Below, piece after piece: positions 5,305 to 45,749 of a stretch of DNA of 64,000 nt; within the stretch, counting starts at the first letter, position 1, and each line of letters starts with the position of its first letter. The DNA is from Liolophura sinensis (Eukaryota > Mollusca > Polyplacophora > Chitonida > Chitonidae): NCBI RefSeq assembly GCF_032854445.1, contig NC_088296.1:27461064-27525063 (forward strand), in the 5' to 3' direction. The position numbers and the translations under genes were made by a program. Below the pieces are notes generated by a model. That model did no database searches, was not told the DNA's origin, and worked only from the letters and a program-made list of their open reading frames with translations.

Positions 5305-7393
5305 TCTGGTTTTAAAAACATGAACCCTGTTATGGGAGAGTCGTAAGAAGACATGAAGCTTGTTATGGGAGGATCTTCAAAACATGAACCTTGTTATGGG
5401 ATTGCCTTACGAAAGCATGAACCTTGTTATGGGGGAGTCTTAAGAAAATATGAACCTAATTATGGGTGAGTCTTAGAAAAAACATGAACCTTGTTAAGGG
5501 AGGGTCTTCAAAACATGAATCTTGTTGTGGGAGAGTCTTAGGAAAACATTAACCTAATTATGGGTGAGTCACAGAAAATCATTAACATTGTTATGGGGGT
5601 GTTTTAGGAAAACACGAACTTTGTTATGTAAAAGTCTTAGAGAAACATTAACCTTGTTATGGGACGGTCTTCGAAAACATGAATTTTGTTGTGGGAGAGT
5701 CTTAAAAAACATGAACCTTGTTAAGGGAGGGTCTTGAAAAACAAAAACCTTGTTATGGGAAGGTCTTGAAAAACATGAATCTTGTTGTGGGATAGTCTTA
5801 AAAACATGAACCTTGTTATGGGAGGGTCTTAAAAACAAAAACCTTGTTATGAGAAAATCTTACGAGAACATGAACCTTGTTATGAGAGGGGGTTTAAAAA
5901 CATGAACCTTGTTATAGGAGAGTCTTCAAAAAAGAGAACCCTGTTATGGGATAGTCTTAACAAACATGAACCTTGATTTGGGATACTCTTAAGAAAACAT
6001 AAACTTTGTTATAGGAGAGTCGTAAGAAAACATGGACCTTGTTATGGGAGGGTCTTAAAGAAACATGAACCTTGTTATGGGAGGGTTTAAAAAATATATG
6101 AAGCTTGCTATGCGAAAATTTTAAAAAATACAAACCTTGATATAAGAGAGTCTTAAGAAAACGTGAACCATATTATGGGTGAGTCTTAAAAACATGAACC
6201 TTGTTATGGGGGTGTCTTACGAAAACACGAACCTTGTTATGTAAGAGTCTTAAGAAAACACGAACCTTGTTATGGAAGGGTCTTCAAAAAAAAAGAACCC
6301 TGTTATGGGATAGTCTTAACAAACATGAACCTTGATTTGGGATACTCTTAAGAAAACATAAACTTTGTTATAGGAGAGTCGTAAGAAAACATGGACCTTG
6401 TTATGGGAGGGTCTTAAAAAACATGAACCTTGTTATGGGAGGGTTTAAAAAATATATGAAGCTTGCTATGCGAGAATTTTAAAAAAATACAATCCTTGAT
6501 ATAAGAAAGTCTTAAGAAAACGTGAACCTTATTATGGGTGAGTCTTAAAAACATTAACCTTGTAATGGGGGTGTCTTAGGAAAACACGAACCTTGTTATG
6601 TAAGAGTCTTAAGAAAACACAAACCTTGTTATGGAAGGGCCTTCAAAAACATGAACCTTGTTGTGGGAGAGTCTTAAGACAACATGAACCTTGTTATGGG
6701 AGAGTCTTTGACAAACAGAAACCATGTTATGGGATAGTCTTTAGAAAACATGAACCTTATTATGGGCAAGTCTTAAAAAAAGATGAACTTTGTTATGGGG
6801 GTGTTTTAGGAAAACATGAAAGTTGTAGTGGGAGAGTCTTAAAAACACGAACCTTGTCTTGGGAGGGTCTTAAGAAATCATGAACCTTGTTATGGGAGGG
6901 TCTGAAAAATATACGAACCTTGTTATGGGAGGATTTTAAAAAAACATGAACCTTGATATTGGAGAGTCTTAAGACAACATGAACCTTGTTATGGGAGTGT
7001 CTTCAAAAATATGAACCTTGTTATGGGATAGTCTGAAAAAACGTGACCCTTGTTATTGGAGAGTCTTAAGAAAACAAAAACATTGTTATCGGTGAGTCTT
7101 AGAAAAACATGAACCTTGTTATGGGTGAGTCTTATAAAAAACATGAACCTTGTTATGGGTGAGTCTTTGAAAAACATGAACTTTTTTAAGGGAGAGTCTT
7201 AAGGAAACATGAACCTTGTTATGGGAGGGTCTTAAGAAAACATGAACCTTGTTGTGGGGGGAGTCTTAAAAACATGAACCTTGTCATGGGAGGGTCTTCA
7301 GAAAACAAGAACCTTGTTATAGGAGGGTCTTAAAAACATGAACCTTGTTATGGGATAGTCTTGTGAAAACATGAACCTTGTTATGGGAGAGTC
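5305..7393. repeat. ~33-bp minisatellite, left arm (about 60 copies)
   Basis: The unit contains AACATGAACCTTGTTATGGG followed by AGAGTCTTAAGAA, with much substitution and small length drift. The same unit resumes at 10173. Open frames inside (for example the SHNKVHVF repeats on the minus strand) are by-products. Confidence 0.95.
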
Positions 7394-10172
7394 TGTTGGG
7401 AAGACCACCCAGAAACTACGGGTGAACGGGCACCGTAAGTCCGTGCGCAAGAAACAATTGCTAATAGGCAAGCATTTCTCCGCCTCCGACCATTACTGGG
7501 ACCATTTCAGCATTCAAATAATAGAATCGGTTTATCCATCAACAAATGAGACTGATGTCGAATTTGAACGTACAATCCGTGACCGTGAGGTTTTCTGGAT
7601 GCTAAAGATTGGTTCAGTCTTCCCATATGGGTTGAATGATAACGTTATGGGAATCGGCAATGTAACATCTAGCCAACCATATGACTCCATCGTAACAAAT
7701 TTATTCAAATACCATAAACGTAGACCTCGCAGTCACAGTAGGAGGAAGTTCAACAGAAACGTGATTCACAAACACGTTACAGTTAGCTATTTAGTAGGAT
7801 TGTCGTATGACACCAATAGCATGCATGCTCTACACACAGTATTATGTGCACTGCCATTGAACTTGCTAAAACAGGTCGTTCAAGACGTATCCAATAACAT
7901 ACACAATTTTAATGTTCCACCTCACCTTGTACGTCTGTGTCAAGACATATCGTATTTTCGATTGTATCGCCCTGTAACTACAATTGAAACTCAACACGGT
8001 CGACTCTTTCTGAAGATAAAGTATTTAGACAGAGACCTTGATTTAATTAACCTACCACGCATCTTTGATGAACCTGATGTTCGTAGTGCTGTGCCTAATT
8101 ATTTTAATATCCAAGAGCCACCTTGCATATCCTATGAGTATACAAAGCCTATCGCTTCCAAAATTTTCAATTATTCCCAGGCCATCAAGGAGTTCGATTT
8201 GGCGACGTATACTTCTGGCGGCTATAACTGATTGTGAATCCTCTGTTTTTACCTACGACAAATGTAAACGTGTCCAGACTGGTGACCTTAATATTATTAA
8301 AAATCATGATCTAAGGAATCTATTTGTGAGGGGTCCTAAGTATAGAGAAAAGAGTAATGTCAATATTCGATCAAACAAAAAAATATCATCTTGGCCCTTG
8401 AGGAGTATGTTAAAAAATGGTCAAAACGGGAGAAAGTGGATTCTTCGGTACTTAACGATTGGCTCGAGATTGTCAAAAAGAAAGTTAGTTTAACTATACA
8501 CCGTCTAGACATTGATGCTCTACCCAAAGTTGAACAGGTTCTGAAGGATCCCACTGTGCAAGAAACACTCGCTGACCTTCATAGTAAATTTGTCATCACT
8601 ATAGCAGACAAGGCTCCTAATAATGTCATCTTTATTTGCAAGAATTATTATTATCAAATTCTTGTTCAAGAGCTATGTACATCTTCAACGACATCCACAT
8701 CCACAAAGACGTATCCACATGGGATTTCTCTACTCTCTATACTACGATTCCTCACAAAGATCTTATTGAAAGAATATCGTCCTTAATTGTCTCGGTATTT
8801 ACTAAAACTGGTCACCGTTACATTAACGTCAGAAGCAATAAGGCTTTCTTTAGTTCTACACTTTATAAAGGTTACCACTCATGAGATGTTACATTATTTA
8901 TTGAATTACTTGAATTTCTCATTAATAACATCTATGTGAAATTCGGAGACACCGTTTACCAACAGTGCATAGGTATTCCAATGGGTACCAATTGTGCGCC
9001 TCTTTTGGCAAACCTATACCTGTTTTCATATGAATACGACTATATGCAGAAATTACTTAAAAGTAATATCTTTAAAGCTCGATCCTTTTCATTTACCAAG
9101 CGGTATATTGATGATCTACTGGCGTTAAATAATCCCCATATTGCTGAAGCAGTGAAGGAAATCTATCCGTCTTCATTGGGTTTAAAGGAGACAACAGATA
9201 GTCCTGATGGTACATCTTATTTGGATCTCTATCTGTACAAAGACGAACAAGCTCTCCTTTCACGCCGCCTTTACGACAAAAGGAATAATTTCAATTTTGA
9301 TATTAATTTCTTATTTAGACAGCAATATACCAAAGGGTCCTGCATCTGGCGTATACATATCGCGCCTTGTAACATTTGTCAGATCTTGCGTTAATTGTGA
9401 TGACTTTAATCTGCGTCACAAGTTGCTAGTTCAAAAACTAGTTTGTCAAGGATACGCCATCAAACGCCTTCATTCTAAGTTCCTCAAATTTTACAATGAG
9501 TATAACACTCTCGTTGGCAGGTATGGACAGAGCGTTCAGAATCTCTGGAGATCTGCATTGTGATCAACCACATAGACGGCGCTGTTATCCCAATGTACAG
9601 AACTATCACGTACATGGTATTTAACAACATAGATGGCGCTGGTTGCCCAGTGTAACCGTCTATCTTGTATGTCATGTGTAACATCATAGATGGCGCCTCT
9701 TGTAGCATGAGATATTTACATATTAACGAGAAAAACGTAATCGTCCGTTACTTTTGAATCATAATCTGATCGGTTAGGAACTGTAACGCTCGTCATTTTC
9801 AAACTGTATCTAATACCGCTTAACCTGGGGCTAGTTGCCGTAAAGGTAGCCATGCTAATTACATCAGCATGATGCCTTTATGAACAGTTGCAATTAAAGC
9901 GCGACTGAGATACTTGTTTAATTGTTATTTGACATGGAACTCATTCACGGACTACGAATTTGAACTTTGATATGGAATTCATGCCTGGAATATTCATTGT
10001 CTGCCCGGCATCATTGAAAACTGGTGACCCCTTCTCTCTTGTGTGTTACCGGCTTTATTTCCTATTTGTATAATTTCTTACATACCTTTGTCTTTGGGAG
10101 TTAATGTTAAACGTTGTTTTGGAAATGGATCTTGCGATTATCGACTTGGAACGCCCTTTACGGACTACGAAT
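7371..10172 (+). pseudogene. Penelope-like retroelement (N-terminal GIY-YIG plus reverse transcriptase), broken copy
   Basis: Diverged element sequence starts near 7394, inside minisatellite DNA that supplies the apparent ATG. Order: the second half of a GIY-YIG nuclease (VGKTTQKLRVNGH, HFSASDHYWDHFSIQIIE, FWMLKIGSVFPYGLN; about 7394-7680), a basic linker, a conserved middle region (KPIASKIFNY), then the reverse transcriptase. RT motifs are ADKAPNNVIFICK, WDFSTLYTTIPH (Asp codon 8723), GIPMGTNCAPLLANL and RYIDDLL (Asp-Asp codons 9110-9115), followed by the GVYISRLVTFVRSC thumb-side block. The frame changes at about 8200, 8390, 8680 and 9340, and there is a TGA at 8882, so it cannot be translated whole. 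The 5' end is truncated within the nuclease. Nuclease upstream of RT is the permuted order described for the Chlamys/Naiad clade. The 3' region (9565-10172) has three 'ACATAGAtGGCGC'-like copies and a 13-bp direct repeat. Confidence 0.85.
9947..10172 (+). repeat. 13-bp direct repeat ACGGACTACGAAT at the retroelement 3' end
   Basis: Copies lie at 9947-9959 and 10160-10172. The second abuts the point where the minisatellite resumes, so it marks the 3' terminus of the insertion. Partial tandem terminal repeats are common in Penelope-like elements. Confidence 0.6.
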
Positions 10173-11835
10173 GGTAGTCATAACCTTGTTATGGGAGGGT
10201 CTTAAAAAACAAAAACCTTGTTATGGGATAATCTTACGAAAAACGTGAACCTTGTTATGGGAGGGTCTTCAAAAACACGAACCTTGTTGTGGGAGGGTTT
10301 TAAAAAACATGAACCTTCTTATGGGATGGTCTTAAAAACATGAACCTTGTTATGGGATTGTCTTAAAAACATAAACCTTGTTATGGGATACTCTTAACAA
10401 TACATGAACCTTGTTATGGAAAGGTCTTCATAAACATGGATCTTGTTATGGGATATTCTTAAGAAAACATGAACCTTGTTATGGGAGAGTCTCAAGAAAA
10501 CATTAACCTTGTTATGGGAGGGTCTCAAGAAAACATGAACCTTGTTATGGGAAAGTCGTAAGGAAACATGAACCTTGTTATGGGAGGGTCTGAAAAATAT
10601 GTGAACCTTGTTATGGGAGCATTTTATAAAACACGTACCTTGATTCATGTTTTCTTAAGAAAACATGAACCTAATTATGGAAGGGTCTTCATAAACATGA
10701 ACCTTGTCGTAAGAGGGTCTTAAGAATACATAAACCTTGTTATGAGAGAGTCTTAAAAAAACATGAGCCTTGTTAAGGGTGAGTCTTAAGGAAACATGAA
10801 CCTTGTTATGGGAGTGTCTGAAAAACAAGAAAGTTGTTATGGGATAGTCTTAAAAAAACACGAACGTTCTTATGGGATAGTCTTAAGAAAACATTAACCT
10901 TGTTATGGGAGGGTCTTCAAAAACATGAACCTTGTTGTGGGGGAGTCTTAAGACAACATAAACCTTGTTATGGGAGGGTCTTAAAAACATGAACGTTTTT
11001 ATGGGAAAGTCTTAAAAAACATGAACGTTGGTATGGGATAGTCTTAAGAAAAACATGAACTTTGTTATGGTAGGGGCTTCAAAAAGATGTATCTTGTTAT
11101 GGGTGAGTCTTAAAAAAACATGAACCTTGTTATGGGAGGGTCTTAAAAACCCGAAGGTTGTTATGGGATAGTCTTAAAAAACATGAACGTTGGTATGGCA
11201 TAGTCTTAAAAAAACATGAACTTTGTTATGGGAGGTTGTTAAAAAAACACGAACCTTGTTGTGGGATAGTCTTAAAAAACACGAACCTTGTTATGGGAGA
11301 GTCTTTAAGAAACATGAACCTTGTTATGGGAGGGTCTTAAAAACATGAACGTTGTTATGGGATAGTCTTAAAAAACACGACCCTTGTTATTGGAGAGTCT
11401 TAAGAAAAACATGAACTTTGTTATGGGAGGGTCTTCAAAAACATGAACCTTGTTATGGGAGGTTCTTAAAAAAACACGTTCCCTGTTTATGGGAGAGTCT
11501 TTAAAAAACATGAACCTTGTCATGGGATAGTCCTAAGAAAACATATTATGGGAGAGTCTTTAAAAGTGTGAACCTTGTTATGGGAGAGTCGTAAGGAAAC
11601 ATGAACCTTATTTTGGTTGAGTTCTAGAAAAACATGAACCATGTTATGGGATAATTTAAAGAAAACATGAACCTCGTTATGGGAGAGTCTTTAAAAAAAA
11701 CATGAACCTTGTTATGGGAGAGTCTTGAAAAAAAAAACATGAATTTTGTTATGGGATAGTCTAAAGAAAACATTAACCTTATCATGGGTAAGTCTTAAGA
11801 AAGCATCAATCTTGTTATGGGAGGGTTTTAAAGTG
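10173..11835. repeat. ~33-bp minisatellite, right arm (about 50 copies)
   Basis: Same unit and orientation as 5305-7393. The retroelement therefore sits inside one formerly continuous array of about 3.7 kb. Confidence 0.95.
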
Positions 11836-15556: not shown

Positions 15557-17747
15557 ATGCCGTTCCTGGACAAATTTCCTCTGCACCTCTGTGTCAGTGT
15601 TGTTTGTGTTTTGTGCTTCGCGGACCACATCGACGCTGAAAACCCTCGTGTAAACACCACGTCCGGTGCGGTGGAGGGGTTTGTCAAAACCGTGAAGCTA
15701 GAAGGGAACCGAACCGTGGACCTCAACGTTTTTCTAGGAATTCCCTACGCCGAGCCTCCGGTCGGCAAACTCCGGCTAAGAAGAACGGTCACTAAGGTCC
15801 CGATACCAGGAGTTTTCAACGCCACGAACTTTGGTCCTATATGTCCTCAGCCTTCTGGGTGGCCTAACAATTTTGCCATGAAGGAAGACTGTCTTGTCCT
15901 GAATATCTATGCTCCTAGTAACGCTTCTGACGATGATCCAAGATCCACCATGGTTTGGATCCATGGGGGGTCATATATCACTGGCACTGGAAACCTCTAC
16001 GACGGCACCCTGATGTCCGCGCTAGGAGATGTTGTTGTTGTAACCATCAACTATCGCCTGGGTGTGCTGGGATATTTTTCCACAGAGGACACCCATTCGC
16101 CTGGTAACTATGGCGCATATGATCAACAGATGGCGCTGTTGTGGGTTATAAACAACATCCAAAACTTTGGCGGAAATCGTTCCAACATCACGGTCATGGG
16201 GGAGTCCGCTGGGGCATCAAGCGTGTCCCTGTTGACCCTCAATAGTCCCACCAACGTCCTGTTCAAGCGAGTCATCGTGGAGAGCGGGACGGCTCTGGCG
16301 AACTGGGCAATGGTGAAGAATCCGAAAGAGAAGGCGAAGATTTACGCGGCATATGCCCAGTGTCCCCAGGAATCCCAGCCACTCGTGGACTGCGTGAGGA
16401 ACATGTCGGTAGCCGACATCATCAAGTACCAAGCCCAGATGGACGCTATGAGGGCTACCTACGGCGGATTGTCCTTCGGGCCGGTGGTGGACCACCAGTT
16501 CTTCCTGTACAGCCCAGAGGAGATAGCAAAGGGTAAAACAACACCGGAATACCTGGACAAATTCAGGCAAATTGACCATCTGGTGGGGACGAATAGTCAG
16601 GAAGGGGCGTGGATCTACGACTTGCGAATGGCACCGTACCGTCAGAAGCTACACATCAATGATTCCGTCATTGGGTTACCTAAGAATGTCTTCATCGACA
16701 TGGTCAATCGGAGTGCCTACGATTTGCTTCCCGCCCATGCTCAACAGCTCCTACCCGCTCTGGAGTACAAGTACACGGATTTCCGCCACCCCGACGACGG
16801 AATGGGCCGAGCAATTAAGTTTATAGACGCCCTGACGGATAGTGTCTTCTACTCGGGGATAGTTCCTCTGGCCCAGCTACATGCGCGTCTTGTCAACGCC
16901 TCTTCCAGCCCGGTGGACGGCGGCAGCACTTACTTCTACCTCTTTGATCACCGTGGTAGCTGGAGAACACACGAACCCTGGCGGACTGGAGCGGATCACG
17001 GAGACGAGGTGTGGTTTGTGTTCGGCTATCCGATGACCCTCCCCACCAGCCCACCCGAAGAGAAAGCTCTGTCCCTAGCAACCATAAGATTCTGGACGAA
17101 CTTCGCCAAAACAGGGTAAGATTGGATTTTATGCTTTCTCTGCCTTTACAGCAAGAGATTGTGTTTAATGGTAACAGACAATCCATGGGAACTACCTGTA
17201 CCATGTCCTAATCTTCTAAAGCCTCAATTTATATACACAGAGGTCGGGTGAAGTTTGACATTTAAAGATGGACGGCGAACAAAAATGCATTTGATCAAAC
17301 TGACAATTTCAAATTTTAGAATGACCATTTGAAATCACATCCAGATGCTAAATGTATGTAGCCTTTCATGTAGTTTCCATACAAAGTTGTTTTACAAAAG
17401 TCTCAAACTTCTTCGTGAAATCAATACCCAAACTCGTTAATGCTTGCAGAAATCCCAACACACCGGAAGATCCGATGTACTCGACGGGATGGCCCAAGTA
17501 TGAGATCGGTGTAGAAAAGTATATCCGGCTTTCCGCAGATATTGAATCCGGGCCTTTGAATGGTTCAAAACTAGCAGCGGATCGAGTTGCGTTCTGGACG
17601 GACTTCCTGCCCAAATTCTCGGCCTCGTTTCCAACAGCAACGCCTTGTCCATCAGCACCGAAATGCACTGGAGCCGCTACAACTGTTGTTGTTTCAGAAG
17701 TACTTGTGTTGTTGTTGATCAGTTTAACACTCATACCATTGTTATAA
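15557..17747 (+). CDS. Esterase A: secreted, possibly membrane-tethered carboxylesterase/cholinesterase-like protein
   Basis: Type-B carboxylesterase (alpha/beta hydrolase), 618 residues, join(15557..17115,17450..17747). The phase-2 intron restores ..FAKTG-NPNTPED.. and has a GTAAGA donor and TTGCAG acceptor. Residues 1-27 form a signal peptide. The catalytic triad is intact: Ser217 in GESAG, Glu349 in NSQEG and His481 in GADHGD. Cysteine pairs at 96/112 and 269/279 fit the family loops. The oxyanion segment reads HGGSY rather than HGGGF. The last ~17 residues are hydrophobic (VLVLLLISLTLIPLL), after a small-residue stretch. This suits a GPI signal or C-terminal anchor, as in some acetylcholinesterases. 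An acceptor-like TTTTAATTGCAG ends at 15421 and may mark a 5' UTR intron. AATAAA lies at 17750, just after the stop. The substrate cannot be told from sequence; cholinesterase activity is not claimed. Confidence 0.93.
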
Positions 17748-20335: not shown

Positions 20336-20559
20336 GGAATTGAATTAGCCTTCAACAATCCCAAAAACGTATTCTATAAAATGCGTAATCAGGTGGGAGG
20401 GTTTTTTTCTTATGCATGTAATATTTTGAGTATAAAAAGACTTGACATATGCACACAACAGATGACGAGTCTGCACTTCCCTGATTTCAGTGTTCATTGT
20501 TCAGATTTATGGTGTGATTTCTTATTTCTGTCCTCAAAAATCATTTTAAATTGTCAAGT

Positions 20560-21204
20560 CACTGATGTAAAGTTAAGGACGCCCTGCTAAGTTCTGTTAT
20601 TTCCAGTTCTCGGAAATCTTTTAACACTGGCAAGTGACTGACGTAAAGTTAATGACGCCCTGCTAAGTTCTGTTATTTCAAGTTCTCGGAAATCTTTTAA
20701 CACTGGCAAGTGACTGACGTAAAGTTAATGACGCCCTGCTAAGTTCTGTTATTTCCAGTTCTCGGAAATCTTTTAACACTGGCAAGTGACTGACGTAAAG
20801 TTAATGACGCCCTGCTAAGTTCTGTTATTTCCAGTTCTCGGAAATCTTTTAACACTGGCAAGTGACTGACGTAAAGTTAATGACGCCCTGCTAAGTTCTG
20901 TTATTTCCAGTTCTCGGAAATCTTTTAACACTGGCAAGTGACTGACGTAAAGTTAATGACGCCCTGCTAAGTTCTGTTATTTCCAGTTCTCGGAAATCTT
21001 TTAACACTGGCAAGTGACTGACGTAAAGTTAATGACGCCCTGCTAAGTTCTGTTATTTCCAGTTCTCGGAAATCTTTTAACACTGGCAAGTGACTGACGT
21101 AAAGTTAATGACGCCCTGCTAAGTTCTGTTATTTCCAGTTCTCGGAAATCTTTTAACCTTGGCAAGTGACTGACGTAAAGTTAAGGACGCCCTGCTAAGT
21201 TCTG
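20560..21204 (-). repeat. 76-bp tandem repeat made from the esterase B stop-codon/3' UTR junction, about 8 copies
   Basis: GCCCTGCTAAGTTCTGTTAT recurs every 76 bp from about 20581 to 21190. The last copy runs straight into the esterase B terminal codons: its GTTATTT contains the reverse-complemented stop at 21205-21207. The unit therefore arose from the 3' UTR edge of the gene. Internal copies are nearly identical, which implies recent expansion. Confidence 0.9.
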
Positions 21205-24145
21205 TTATTTGGAGAGCTCAGAAGTATTGGTACAGTTCTCGAGAGAAGCGTACAGATCCTTAATTTCCTGTTCATGTTTTGGCACAAGATATGTCCAGAA
21301 TGCCACACGTTCCGGAGATATCCGAGCCTTCACGGAATCCTGCGAAAGGTTCGTGTCCAGCTGTAGGTAAAGCTCGGAGTTAGAATCAAAAGGAGGCCAT
21401 TTAGGTAAAGGAACATCTGCCGATGGTTGGTTTGGATCCCTGAAACATGGATTAAATATGACATAAAAATAATGATTGGCAAATTAGAGAGAACTTTTGT
21501 AGTTGAAGAATGATTTTTTTTACTAATTTCTTAAAATTTTATTTGTGGATTCAGTATTTATTTACAATCTTTACTGGAGTGTAAACTGGCTTTACGCAAG
21601 ACTGCGCATGTGCCGTACGTGTGAACAGATACTTGCTCATCATCGTGTCTTTACACTTACCCAGTTTTGATTAGGTTTGCCCAGTATTTCATCATTTGTC
21701 GTATATAAGTGTGAACAGGAGATTACTCTTCACCGTGCGTTTATATGTTTACCCGGTTTTGATAAAATTTATTCAACATTTCATCCGCCGTACGTGTGAA
21801 CGGAGGGTTTCCTGTCCCGTCTTTTCAATGTTTGTCCAGTATTTCAACATCTGTCGCACATATGAACACATGTTTGCTCATCTTCGTGTCTTTTCACTCA
21901 CCTGGTTTTCACAATTTTTGTCCAGTATCTCATCATCTGTCGCACATATGAAAAGAGGGTTTCCTGTCCTGTCTTTACATTTACGCGGTTTTCACGATGT
22001 TTGTCCAGTATTTCAACATCTGTCGTACATATGAACACAGGTTTGCTCATCTTCGCGTCTTTTCACTTACCCGGCTTTCACAAATTTTGTCCAGTATCTT
22101 ATCATCTGTCGCACATATGAACAGAGGTTTTCTTGTCCTGGTGTGAAGAAAAGTTTGCTTATCATCGCGCCTTTACACTTACCCAGTTTTGACAAAGTTT
22201 GTCCAGTATTTCAACATCTGTCAGGAGAAAACATTTTCTCTTATCATCGCGCCTTTACACTTACCCAGTTTTGACAGAGTTTGTCCAGTATTTCAACATC
22301 TGTCAGGAGAAAACATTTTCTCTTATCGCGCCTTTACACTTACCCAGGTTTGACAAAGTTTGTCCAGTATTTCATCATCTGTCATGAGAAAACATTTTCT
22401 TATATCATCGCGCCTTTACACTTACCCAGTTTTGACCAAGTTTGTCCAGTATTTCATCATCTGTCAGGAGAAAACATTTTCTCTTATCATCGCGCCTTTA
22501 CACTTACCCAGTTTTGACAAAGTTTGTCCAGTATTTCATCATCTGTCAGGAGAAAATATTTTCTTTTATCATCGCGCCTTTACACTTACCCAGTTTTGAC
22601 AAAGTTTGTCCAGTATTTCATCATCTGTCGTGTAAATACTTTCTCTGTCTCCGTGGCGTTACACAAATTCGTTAGCGGTATGCCAAATAAAAAGAACATG
22701 TCATCTCCATGATCTGCCCCAGTTCTCCAAGGACTGGTTTCCATCCAGCTTCCAGGCTGATTAAATTGGTAGAAGAAAGTTCTCCCTCTTGGAGATTGAC
22801 TTCCTGTGCCGTTGCGTGACTCAGCGAGATTCATTCCGGCATGCAGCCGGGCAAACTCGACAGCAGGTACGGAGAACAATACATCAGTCAGAAATCGGAC
22901 GTACATTTTTGTGCGGGACAGCGCGTCGTCAGGGTTTTGCCAGTCCTTGTACAGATACGATATCATAGCCCTTGTGGAGTCCACACTGTCTGATTTTCCA
23001 GCTAACAGCAACGACACATATGATGTGAAAAAATTATTGAAAAGTTCAGAGTTCAGGCCTTGCCCAAAAGGAATGCCATAGTTTTCTTCCAGAAACTTTT
23101 CCATACCTGAATAAAACGAAGCGCCTTCTTCTGAGCAGACGCCGATCATGAGATCGGTGTGGACAAGCTGCTCTCGTAGTTCCGTGTTGTCCACCTTGTT
23201 TTTCAGTTTTTCAATCGTGAATGGAAAAAAGTCGTTATCGTAGATTGGTCCCCATTTTGGTCCGATCGATGTTGGGTGGAACTCCTGAAAGGCTAGGAAA
23301 TCGTTGGCGGTAAAGTGCCTAAGGCACTCCAGGAGGTTTACGGAGTCGTTAGCTGGACATCTGAGGCTGCTGGCCATCTCATGGACGTGGGTAAGAGGAC
23401 TGACAACCCGACTCCACGGAGCGATGGCTGTGCCACTCTGAGCGATCACTCTGTGGAAGAGACCCTTGCTGGCGGGAGTGACGAGTAACTGTGAAACACT
23501 TCCTCCACCGGCAGACTCTCCAGCTATCGTCACCCGATGTTTGTCTCCTCCGAAACTTGCAATGTTTTTCTGAATCCACTGTAAAGCCACAATCTGGTCT
23601 CGAAGGCCAAGATTTCCAGGCGCATGCTCGTCACCCGTGGTGAGGAAACCGAGAACCCCCAAGCGATAGTTGATCGTTACCACGATGACGTCATTCAAGC
23701 CAGCCAATAAGCTGCTGGCAAAGATGTTCTTGAAGCCAAAGTTATATCCTCCTCCATGAATCCAAACCAGAACAGCCTTTGGATTGTCCACGGACGCCAG
23801 TGGAGGAACGTAAACATCCAAGAACAAGCAATCTTCATTCTGTGTGAAATTGTGTCCCACATGAGCACAGTTTTCGCCGAATTCAACATACTGCTGTGGA
23901 CAAACCGCTGTCTGGCTTGTTGCGTCGTACACCTCTGAATGCGGCGATATCAACTTTGTAGGTTTGAAACGAAGTTTCCCAATTGGTGGCTCAGCAAACG
24001 CTATTCCAAGATAACTTACGACACCAATCTCATCCGGAGGAAGGCCTCGGTACTTTCCGTTAGGTGTCGAGAGAACAGGCTCTACGGGCACGCTGACAGC
24101 GGCGAGTTGAGCTAGTAACCGAAGGGAGAATACTACGAACAGCAT
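21205..24145 (-). CDS. Esterase B: secreted carboxylesterase/cholinesterase-like protein
   Basis: Type-B carboxylesterase of 596 residues, complement(join(21205..21439,22590..24145)). Start is the ATG at 24145, aligned with esterase C (MLF..AAVSVPV); the open frame extends to a GTG at 24157, but an acceptor-like TTTACAG lies just upstream. Signal peptide about residues 1-16. The triad is Ser211 (GESAG), Glu340 (CSEEG) and His479 (GADHGD); the oxyanion motif is the standard HGGGY. Cys82/Cys106 and Cys263/Cys274 fit family loops; Cys93 is extra relative to C. The phase-2 intron restores ..FVKTG-DPNQPSAD.. It is 1,150 bp, against 258 bp in C, because about 11 extra copies of the exon end and donor fill it. 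Exon 2 ends ..TNTSELSK with no hydrophobic tail, so the product should be soluble and secreted. Confidence 0.93.
21640..22635 (-). repeat. About 12 tandem copies of the esterase B exon-1 end plus splice donor (~82 bp units)
   Basis: On the minus strand each good unit reads CTCCTGACAG, then the 35 nt encoding MMKYWTNFVKTG, then the donor GTAAGT. Copies nearest the gene (starts about 22183, 22265, 22344, 22426 and 22508) are almost identical with 79-82 bp spacing; copies from 21640 to 22180 are older and diverged. The unit at 22590 is the real exon end. Reading past the first donor meets an immediate in-frame TAA. Confidence 0.93.
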
Positions 24146-36817: not shown

Positions 36818-38881
36818 ATGCTGTTCATAATTATCACCCTTGGGTTACTACCTCACTCGGCCGCCGTGAGCGTGCCTGTAGGGTCTGTTCTCGCGACACC
36901 TAGTGGAAAGTACAGAGGCCTCCCACCGGATGAGGTTGGTGTCATAAGGTATCTTGGGATAGCGTTTGCAGAGCCACCAATCGGGAAGCTTCGTTTCAAA
37001 CCTACAAAGTTGATATCGCCGCATTCAGAGGTGTACGACGCAACAAGCCAGACAGCTGTTTGTCCACAAACTTTCCTTGAATTGAGCGAAAAGTATGACC
37101 ATTTTCGGCAGAATTTCACACAGAATGAAGATTGCTTGTTCTTGGATGTTTACGTTCCTCCACTGGCGTCCGTGGACAATCCAAAGGCTGTTCTGGTTTG
37201 GATTCATGGAGGAGGATATATCATAGGCTACAAGAACACTTACAACGCCGCTTTATTGGCTGGCTTGAACGACGTCATTGTGGTAACGATCAACTATCGC
37301 TTGGGGGTTCTCGGTTTCCTCACCACGGGCGACGAGCATGCGCCTGGAAATCTTGGCCTTCGAGACCAGATTGTGGCTTTACAGTGGATTCAGAAAAACA
37401 TTGCAAGTTTCGGAGGAGACAAACATCGGGTGACGATAGCTGGAGAGTCTGCCGGTGGAGGAAGTGTTTCACAGTTACTCGTCACTCCCGCCAGCAAGGG
37501 TCTCTTCCACAGAGTGATCGCTCAGAGTGGCACAGCCATCGCTCCGTGGAGTCGGGTTGTCAGTCCTCTTACCCACGTCCATGAGATGGCCAGCAGCCTC
37601 GGTTGTCCAGTTAACGACTCCGTAAACCTCCTGGAGTGCCTTAGGCACTTTACCCCCAACGATTTCCTAGCCTTTCAGAATATCGATTTAAAGTCCATCG
37701 GACCAAAATGGGGGCCAATCTACGATAACGACTTTTTTCCATTTACGCTAGAAGAACTAAAAAATAACGTTGATAGCGGGGAGATACAAGAGCAGCTTGT
37801 CCACACCGATCTCATGATCGGCGTCTGCTCAGAAGAAGGCGCCCTGTTTTATTCAGGCATAGAAAAGCTTCTGGAGCAAAAATACGGCATTCCTTTGGGG
37901 CAAGGCCTGAGCTCTGAACATTTCAACAGTTTTCTCTCATTATACGTGTCATTTCTGTTTGCTGAAAAACCCGGTAGTGTAGAGTCCACAAAGACTATGA
38001 TATCGTATCTGTACAAGGACTGGCAAAACCCTGACGACGCGCTGTCCCGCTCGAAAATGTTGATACAGTTTTTGACCGATGCATTGTTCTGCGTGCCTGC
38101 CGTCGAGTTTGCCCGGTTGCATGCCGGGATGAATCTTGATGAGTCACGCAACGGCACAGGAAGTCAATCTCCAAGAGGGAGAACTTTCTTCTACCAGTTC
38201 AATCACCCTGTAAGTTGGCTGGAGACCAGTCCGTGGAGAACTGGGGCAGATCATGGGGATGACGTGTTCTTTGTGTACGGTTTCCCGCTTACGGATATGT
38301 GTAACGCCACTGATAGTGAGAAAGTGTTCACACGACAGATGATGAAATACTGGACAAACTTTGTGAAAACCGGGTAAGTGTGAAGGCACGATGATAAGCA
38401 ACGTTCTACTTGCACGCACGTCAGATAATGACATGGAATCAATATCTGTCAAAACGTGGTAAATCTAAGGTTTACCTAAAGATAGTTTTGAATGTAGCGA
38501 AGATTGTGCAGAAATAAGTTAATGCATTAATTTATAAAAATATGTGTCAATATCCATGCTTAAACCATAAGGTTTCTGCATAATTTGCAAGTGTTTCATC
38601 GACTTGATGCTATACTGAATCCATGTTTCAGGGATCCAAACCAACCGTCGGCAGATGTTACTTTACCCAAATGGCCGCATTTTGAAACGGGCTCCGAGCT
38701 TTACCTAGAGCTTGACACGAACCTGTCGGAAGATTCCGTGAAAGGTCGGATAACTCCGGAACGTGTGGCATTCTGGACGGACCTTCTACCAAAACATGAC
38801 AAGGAAATGAAGGACCTGTACGCTTCTCTCGAGAACTGTACGGATAATTCTGACAACACGAAAAACCAAATCACTTCATAA
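36818..38881 (+). CDS. Esterase C: secreted carboxylesterase/cholinesterase-like protein, paralogue of esterase B
   Basis: Type-B carboxylesterase of 601 residues, join(36818..38373,38632..38881). I prefer the ATG at 36818 over the in-frame ATG at 36749: an acceptor-like TTTTTACAG at 36795 lies between them, and 36818 gives a signal peptide (MLFIIITLGLLPHSAA) aligned with B. Exon 1 has exactly B's length (1,556 nt). The triad is Ser211 (GESAG), Glu340 (CSEEG) and His479 (GADHGD), and the oxyanion motif is HGGGY. The phase-2 intron (258 bp, GTAAGT..TTTCAG) restores ..FVKTG-DPNQPSAD.. The C terminus (..SDNTKNQITS) is hydrophilic, so the protein should be soluble. AATAAA at 39125 is a plausible polyadenylation signal. 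The gene points away from B. Confidence 0.94.
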
Positions 38882-44306: not shown

Positions 44307-44407
44307 CGGGCACGGAGGTTGGATCAGTGAATAATCACCCTTTTTTGCTGAATTCATAACTCGTAGTGAGAATCAGCTATAATGAATGAGCAAATCATTT
44401 TCAGGTA

Positions 44408-45555
44408 AGTACACGCAACGCTGTGCAGGTGAATGGTCGATCCCTTCAATCGCTGACACACCGCTGTGCAGGTGAATGCTTGACCCTTTCAACCGCTGAC
44501 ACACACACCGCTGTGCAGGTGGCTGTTCGATCCTTCAACTGCTGAAACACCCCTCTGTGCATGTGGGTGCTCGATCCCTTCAACCGCTGACACACACCCC
44601 TGTGCAGGTTAGTGCCCGATCCCTTCAATCGCTGACACACCGCTGTGCAGGTTAGTGCTCGATCCCTTCAACCGCTGACACACACCGCTGTGCAGGTGAG
44701 TGCTCGATCCATTCAATCGCTGACACACCGCTGTGCAGGTGAATGCTCGACCCCTTCAATCGCTGACACACACCGCTGTGCAGGTGGCTGTTCGATCCTT
44801 CAACCGCTGAAATACCCCTCTGTGCATGTGGGTGCTCGATCCCTTCAACCGCTGACACACACCGCTGTGCAGGTTAGTGCTCGATCCCTTCAATCGCTGA
44901 CACACCGCTGTGCAGGTTAGTGCTCGATCCCTTCAATCGCTGACACACCGCTGTGAGGTGAATGCTCGACCCCTTCAACCGCTGACACACACACCGCTGT
45001 GAGGTGAATGCTCGACCCCTTCAACCGCTGACACACACACCGCTGTGCAGGTGGCTGCAATCTCTTCAACCGCTGACACACACTGCTGTGCAGGCGAGTG
45101 ATCGATACCTTCAACCGCTGACACACACCGCTGTGCAGGTGAATGCTCGATCCCTTCAACCGCTGACACACACCGCTGTGCAGGTTAGTGCTTGATCCAT
45201 TCAATCGCTGACACACCGCTGTGCAGGTGAATGCTCGACCCCTTCAACCGCTGACACACACACCGCTGTGCAGGCGAGTGATCGATCCCTTCAACCGCTG
45301 ACACACACCGCTGTGCAATTGGGTGCTCGATCTCTTCAACCGCTGACACACACTGCTGTACAGGTGAGTGCTCGATCCCTTCAATCGCTGACACACGCCG
45401 CTGTGCAGGTGAGTGCTCGATCCCTTCAACCGCTGACACACACCGCTGTACAGGTCAGTGCTCGACCCCTTCTACCCCTGACACACACATCGCTGTGCAG
45501 GCGAGTGCTCGATCCCTTCAACCGCTGATACACACCGCTGTGAGGTGAGTGCTCG
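44408..45555. repeat. ~45-bp minisatellite with AG|GTGAGT in most units, about 25 copies
   Basis: Units read CGCTGTGCAGGTGAGTGCTC then GATCCCTTCAACCGCTGACACACAC. Each places a branch-like CTGAC and a CAG directly before a donor-like GTGAGT or GTGAAT. The flanks carry the same arrangement: TTTTCAG|GTAAGT at 44397-44410 and CTTACCACAG|GTGAAC near 45662. Frames on both strands are open by composition only. Confidence 0.92.
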
Positions 45556-45749
45556 TTTCCTTCACAACTTCAACAGAAAGCGTATATTCTGTATGAGGTA
45601 CATGGAAATCGGCTTTTGGAGAACTTGTTGAAGGACTGCAATTCCTGTGTTTCTTACCACAGGTGAACGATTTTCGGCGGGCAAAAGTCCTTGAAACGAA
45701 GGGTTTTCCAGAGGCAAAACGATCCATTTATGGCAAGGGCACCCTGTCT

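Follow-up and report, generated by a model that had tools for sequence, protein, structure and literature searches.

A splice-donor junction repeated in tandem within esterase B of Liolophura sinensis and recurring in neighbouring paralogues

Esterase B and its junction array

The window analysed here is a stretch of 64,000 nucleotides from the chiton Liolophura sinensis (published as Liolophura japonica and since corrected to L. sinensis, PMC12441733). It encodes three esterases, hereafter A, B and C, whose first exons match the COesterase profile PF00135 at 417-421 bits (cut-off 27) and whose nearest PDB entries are neuroligins and cholinesterases. The predicted protein of esterase B has 596 residues and its stop codon lies at 21207-21205 (Table 1). 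On C2, in the numbering of the assembly copy used, the gene spans 27482268-27485208. Exon 1 ends in phase 2 at ...MMKYWTNFVKT-GG/GTAAGTG and exon 2 resumes with DPNQPS.

Table 1. Features of the esterase junctions (positions in the window, or on C2 where so marked)
Feature	Position	Strand	Details and basis
Esterase B, exon 1	22590..24145	(-)	518 codons + 2 nt; open frame, PF00135 421 bits, junction and translation
Esterase B, exonic unit copy (copy 1), the last 35 nt of exon 1		(-)	
Esterase B, first donor, GTAAGT	22584..22589	(-)	
Esterase B, intron of 1150 bp, most of it filled by the array	21440..22589	(-)	donor and acceptor read; frame across the joint
Esterase B, exon 2 (last 77 residues and stop codon)	21205..21439	(-)	
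Esterase B, junction array, 12 copies of exon tail and donor (copy 1 exonic)	21640..22629	(-)	
Paralogue C, intron of 258 bp, position and phase as in B	38374..38631	(+)	
Paralogue C, decayed second unit copy in the intron, donor lost	~38419..38471	(+)	score 30
Esterase A, junction in single copy, no array	17085..17120	(+)	profile hit; self-scan
Paralogue D, junction array	C2:27.607 Mb		30 copies, 77 bp; TRF 29.7 units
Paralogue E, junction array	C2:27.584 Mb		8 copies, 77 bp; TRF 6.4 units
Paralogue F, junction array	C2:27.435 Mb		decayed, about 6-7 copies

The end of exon 1, together with its donor, is repeated through the intron of esterase B. A previous reading of the same DNA from its letters alone (the sequence-only reading) had counted about 12 repeats, and a direct scan, TRF and a repeat search all agree on 12 copies, one exonic and 11 intronic, with a unit of about 82 bp; the donor likewise stands where that reading had put it, at 22589/22590. 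The copies start (first base of the ATG, minus strand) at 22624 (exon), 22542, 22460, 22378, 22299 and 22217 and, for copies 7-12, at 22105, 22019, 21936, 21850, 21787 and 21695, with successive spacings of 82, 82, 82, 79, 82, 112, 86, 83, 86, 63 and 92. Units measure about 82 bp in copies 1-6 and mostly 83-92 bp in copies 7-12, and TRF splits the array in two, with 5.8 copies of an 82-bp unit and 3.6 copies of an 86-bp one. The top self-match scores 116 against at most 28 in 200 shuffles, well beyond chance.

Compared with the exon copy over 46 nt, copies 2-6 show 0, 1, 1, 2 and 1 differences, in keeping with the earlier description of five near-perfect proximal copies, and copies 7-12 show 6, 7, 7, 11, 13 and 5. 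The exon-like parts of most copies are free of indels. GTRAGT is retained in nine of the 12 copies (copies 1-7, 9 and 12), and these nine donors agree with the consensus CAG/GTAAGT at 7 or 8 of its 9 positions; copy 8 reads GTAAAT, copy 11 reads GTAAAC and the donor of copy 10 is deleted. The acceptor-like sequence that had been attributed to every proximal copy is present directly 5' of four of the five proximal intronic ones as CTCCTGACAG, copy 4 having CTCATGACAG instead. Over 61 core positions, copy 1 is identical to copy 2 and differs from copies 7, 9 and 12 at 9, 11 and 7 positions, respectively. The divergence of these three copies falls within the B-C range (dS 0.245), so the distal part of the array appears to date from around the time of the B-C split, whereas the proximal part appears young; the recent expansion proposed earlier is thus retained for copies 2-6 and not for copies 7, 9 and 12.

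A search of the single assembly with the B unit found no second version of the B locus. At the other end of the gene, a 76-bp x 8.9 array (window 20538-21210) starts at the end of esterase B and its last unit overlaps the stop codon, so that esterase B carries arrays both at its donor junction and at its stop codon. In the young units (window 22145-22629), the acceptor-like pyrimidine tract pairs with the adjacent upstream purines (GAGAAAATGTTTTCTC) in a weak hairpin; taken whole, the unit shows no better RNA fold than shuffles, as tried on three units.

The same junction in other esterases

Paralogue C had been described as having a 258-bp intron and a single copy of the junction. The intron length is correct, but the intron also contains a decayed second copy, visible only when it is searched alone with B-type units. 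The score of this copy compares with a shuffle mean of 15.7 (reached by 1 of 2000 shuffles) and with a best score of 25 among 402 other 250-nt pieces of the window, and a profile of four older B units matches it at 7.5 bits (E 1.3; best of 2000 shuffles 6.0). The exon tail of C itself, scanned over 3 kb, gives at best 23, a score reached by 22 of 200 shuffles. The earlier argument for recency, which used the single copy in C, is corrected by this second copy. In esterase A, a weak self-match (27; 0 of 200 shuffles) situated 476 nt past the exon end was not counted, since by frame reading it lies outside the intron.

A protein search of the genome (632 contigs, 609.46 Mb) gave at least 70 esterase matches, of which 26 reach the exon end, namely A, B, C and 23 others whose downstream DNA was taken. 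One of them (L023) was dropped because the junction motif is missing, leaving 25 copies with a phase-2 junction at the same position; at least two of the 25 seem damaged, since stops interrupt matches located at L015 and L017 or next to them. The own tail of each copy was then searched in its downstream DNA against 200 shuffles. Extra copies beyond all 200 shuffles number 11 in B, 29 in D, 7 in E and 6, diverged, in F. Esterase B and four others (C, D, E and F) are duplicated at the junction, out of 25, and these five lie with the array-less A in one cluster of ~180 kb (C2:27.43-27.61 Mb). The own-tail scan found no array in any of the 19 copies outside the cluster, nor in A inside it; a self-match of 25 in L018, matched by 6 of 200 shuffles, was not counted. 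Searches of the genome DNA with B, D and F units turned up no other array: units of D and E were found in D and E only, F units in F only, and B units in B, in C and in three short exon-tail matches at other esterases. An expansion specific to the lineage of B, as first proposed, does not agree with the amplification of the same junction in D, E and F and with the relic in C.

Array D extends over ~2.3 kb and keeps GTAAGT or GTATGT in 28 of its 30 copies; its commonest unit has no AG where the B units have their acceptor-like AG. In F, GTRAGT is found in one of the five extra copies listed, and the second copy of C is without donor. Within array D (L004:613-1640), units encoding MVYWTNIAKS and MEYWAHFANS alternate as a 154-bp higher-order repeat, the second type resembling E units. 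The array is followed (L004:2436-2716) by a foreign stretch, a string similar to which occurs again in L004 and in L016, and past this stretch, at C2:27610501-27610615, lies a displaced remnant of a unit, a layout that suggests an array broken up by an insertion.

HiFi coverage of only 14x and a heterozygosity of about 1.24% might suggest that the arrays are an assembly artefact in repeat-rich DNA, but the mean HiFi read of 8.3 kb is longer than the arrays, D included (sequencing figures given in part of PMC11068029). Moreover, the copies carry individual substitutions with graded divergence, and the decayed copies of F and C are unlike products of mis-assembly. We consider such an artefact extremely unlikely.

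The relationships of the array-bearing genes were examined on a tree of 18 proteins with their last 14 residues removed, in which 7 of the 25 copies (L015, L017 and L018-L022) are not included. In the tree, B pairs with C and D pairs with E, F being set apart, and the nearest relative of D/E (C2_19.605) is array-less, without a trace. Protein identity is 83% for B-C, 77% for D-E (dS 0.382) and 33-37% between these groups and F. The array label costs 3 changes on the tree, and starred branches make at least 2 of them unavoidable; when the labels are shuffled, 45 of 500 cases get by with 3 or fewer, which means that the label shows no strong clustering. Within B/C, within D/E and within F, the intronic halves of the units resemble one another (shuffles do as well in 0-1 of 500 cases), and no match was found between these three groups (14 pairs tried, 72-485 of 500 shuffles as good). 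The exonic half is common to the arrays because the exon itself is common, and the duplications look separate. Given the unrelated intronic halves and the three tree changes, three separate amplifications, in the B/C, D/E and F lineages, are the likeliest history, although this is not proven. The alternative would be one ancient array in the ancestor, subject to concerted evolution, lost or decayed elsewhere, with intronic halves diverged past recognition. Unit lengths are indeed alike (77-92 bp), the exonic part starts alike in B and D/E, a relic is common to B and C, and the tree changes may also be read as one gain and two losses; nevertheless, with no match of intronic halves between the clades and no trace in C2_19.605, we judge a single origin to be quite unlikely.

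Predicted splicing outcomes and constraint on the units

Translation of the sequence bears out that a later B donor leads to an immediate TAA (...KTG-TAA). With read-through, or with exon 1 spliced to the ATG position of whichever of the 11 units, the protein ends with KTG, KTGC or KTGG. Every alternative route tested meets a stop just past ...FVKTG, so that, as anticipated, the last residues are lost, although these are 77 rather than ~78. The predicted proteins have 519-520 residues and retain GESAGG and GADHGDD, the motifs with the family's catalytic Ser and His. As up to nine donors are nearly equal, a full-length mRNA would need the outermost one, and the use of a later donor, the inclusion of a unit or retention would give mRNAs ending after ...FVKTG, with either a truncated esterase or NMD as the outcome. 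Such leaky splicing would be expected as a side effect of the arrays. According to the 50-55-nt rule for NMD, transcripts keeping whole units would be targets, and one into which a single 35-nt unit is spliced might not be degraded.

Distinct changes in the exon-like part of the units amount to 13 N : 3 S in B (possible 79 N, 14 S and 6 stop; copies 10 and 11 left out), 14 N : 6 S and one stop in D (possible 68, 14 and 8) and 10 N : 4 S in E (possible 70, 14 and 6; last copy left out), which is near neutral in all three. The exon of D encodes WTNF, and this is found in none of its 29 array units (20 WTNI, 6 WAHF and 3 others), as expected with constraint on the exon only. For the donors, mean column diversity in B and D is below that of either other unit part when copies 10 and 11 of B and the last copy of E are excluded. 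Selection on the donors, as this low mean might suggest, is not supported by a rank test with copy 11 of B and all E copies restored: six-column windows at least as conserved as the donor columns number 13 of 60 in B (11 of the 12 copies, copy 10, a deletion, being out), 26 of 65 in D and 40 of 65 in E, the donor window itself included in these counts. In the units of B, D and E, neither N:S nor the rank test thus gave a sign of selection.

These results bear on the proposal that each unit is a 35-nt microexon flanked by an acceptor and a donor of its own and spliced in alone or together with others. The acceptor-like CTCCTGACAG at four of the five proximal intronic B copies and the lack of indels in most exon-like parts would agree with it. 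However, neighbouring copies leave an intron of 47 nt, below most animal introns, and the 35-nt unit is out of frame, so that its inclusion halts translation. In addition, the acceptor-like AG beside the B units is missing there from the commonest D unit, and the N:S of the exon-like part is near neutral. The microexon proposal is therefore weak and we regard it as very unlikely; a recent microexon array in a single gene is not the reading that best fits these data. Tandem duplicated, mutually exclusive exons of the Dscam type also place exon-like copies beside splice sites, but the chiton units are partial exons, out of frame and without detectable coding constraint, and every inclusion tested stops at once, unlike what duplicated alternative exons would show.

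Another possibility is that the junction was amplified independently in three or more esterase lineages because repeated donors are useful, the array acting as a decoy, tunable by copy number, that diverts a share of the transcripts to one truncated esterase or to decay. If true, this would be a convergent splicing rheostat made of minisatellites. That one junction recurs within a single cluster in units of differing sequence would be in line with such a decoy, as would the nearly identical protein end reached by all routes tested and the donors kept in most copies of B (GTRAGT, 9 of 12) and D (28 of 30). On the other hand, the donor columns do not stand out in the rank counts of B, D and E, GTRAGT persists in one of the five listed extra copies of F and is gone from the second copy of C, and the 19 copies outside the cluster do without an array. 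We hold this selected decoy to be unlikely: in all likelihood the array in the esterases is tolerated, and a selected splicing rheostat has a minority chance.

Minisatellite background and known donor-spanning repeats

TRF arrays with a period of at least 7 make up 22.7% of the window, or 21.5% when the junction array is left aside, compared with 8.0% next to 20 esterase matches outside the cluster (67.7 kb), 2.9% at 24 P450 loci (87 kb, two pairs of loci overlapping) and 4.2-10.7% in five 8-kb C2 pieces. No array of at least three copies was found at the edges of the matched stretches of the P450 loci, these edges being those of profile matches and not proven exon ends; two 2-copy repeats of 36-37 bp occur at or beside an edge (L046 and L059). 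An effect of the chromosome end was rejected, as tandem DNA makes up 5.1% of C2 at 28.2 Mb and 10.7% at 27.7 Mb, which indicates that the richness is local and not a simple end effect. By our own arithmetic, which uses the 21.5% coverage and ignores coding constraint, the chance that at least three of the four cluster lineages (A, B/C, D/E and F) are hit is ~0.03. Local array richness explains the recurrence far, but not fully, the hits being somewhat above the coverage prediction. Genome-wide, the triple GGTRAGT with 40-70-nt spacing gives 6932 matches (overlaps counted) against 5948 for the backwards pattern (1.17-fold); donor-like arrays are therefore common in the genome and alone are no sign of splicing.

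Comparable repeats are described in human genes. The intron-18 VNTR of ABCA7 includes the donor of exon 18 and has more donors in its units, and RNA data show transcripts that retain one unit and thereby acquire a premature stop (passages of PMC5954066). The chiton arrays share with it a tandem structure that contains the donor of the host exon (as found in the units of B) and extra donors in the units. In contrast, the ABCA7 unit measures 25 bp and starts at GT, so that no coding tail is repeated, and the repeat is highly polymorphic and known from one human gene, whereas the chiton units of 77-92 bp repeat a coding tail of ~41-46 nt in several paralogues. The 31-bp VNTR of human CBS (c.1444_1467+7) reaches, by its name, from the end of an exon across the first 7 bases of the intron, as here, but has a 31-bp unit in 16-21 copies in a single gene; CBS 844ins68 also duplicates an intron/exon junction, with which the splicing machinery copes (both from passages of PMC2630376). 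Intron gain by tandem genomic duplication, as outlined in parts of PMC4974935 and PMC2891723, similarly involves tandem duplication that includes splice signals, but there an intron is born, whereas the chiton intron is old, common to 25 paralogous copies and merely enlarged; its phase-2 junction is also present in array-less copies. The MIR137HG VNTR was discarded as a parallel, since its alternative donors, according to a portion of PMC6692358, lie in the pre-miR-137 sequence, outside the repeat. Judged by their sequence, the chiton arrays have a structure of the ABCA7/CBS kind. Among open-licence papers on donor-repeat arrays and on chiton carboxylesterases, we found no report of these arrays or of their recurrence in paralogues.

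We consider it probable that a recurrent donor-spanning minisatellite of the ABCA7/CBS kind occupies the esterase cluster, tolerated and with leaky truncation. Tandem duplication of a segment with ~41-46 nt from the end of the exon and ~35-45 nt from the beginning of the intron would have placed extra donors inside the intron, and unequal exchange would then have expanded and homogenised the copies. Amplification would have occurred independently for B/C, D/E and F, within a minisatellite-rich cluster. The arrays would persist because the exon-proximal donor is intact and the downstream copies are removed with the intron.

Donor-repeat VNTRs have been described in single human genes, where the number of repeats can alter splicing and affect the risk of disease (as for ABCA7, passages of PMC5954066). 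Here, one junction has apparently been amplified three times, with different units, both young and decayed, which amounts to a natural replicate experiment. It raises the questions of how the spliceosome chooses among 8-30 near-identical donors and of whether the arrays are tolerated only. RNA-seq samples of the species are public (SAMN35319765-69, listed in a part of PMC11068029), so the question of donor choice is testable at once.

Two other repeats of the window deserve mention. At 44401-45570, a 45-bp x 25.8 array has 18 CAGGT (4 of them CAGGTRAGT), with TTTTCAG/GTAAGT in front and no open frame of at least 120 aa; it resembles repeated joint acceptor/donor sites, similar to those of recursive splicing. 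Finally, two arrays of one 33-bp unit, at 5315-7394 and at 10182-11832, lie on either side of open pieces (7359-9563), one of which has a weak match to the reverse-transcriptase profile RVT_1 (17 bits, cut-off 29.6), and the whole (5315-11832) is perhaps a Penelope-like element with array ends.
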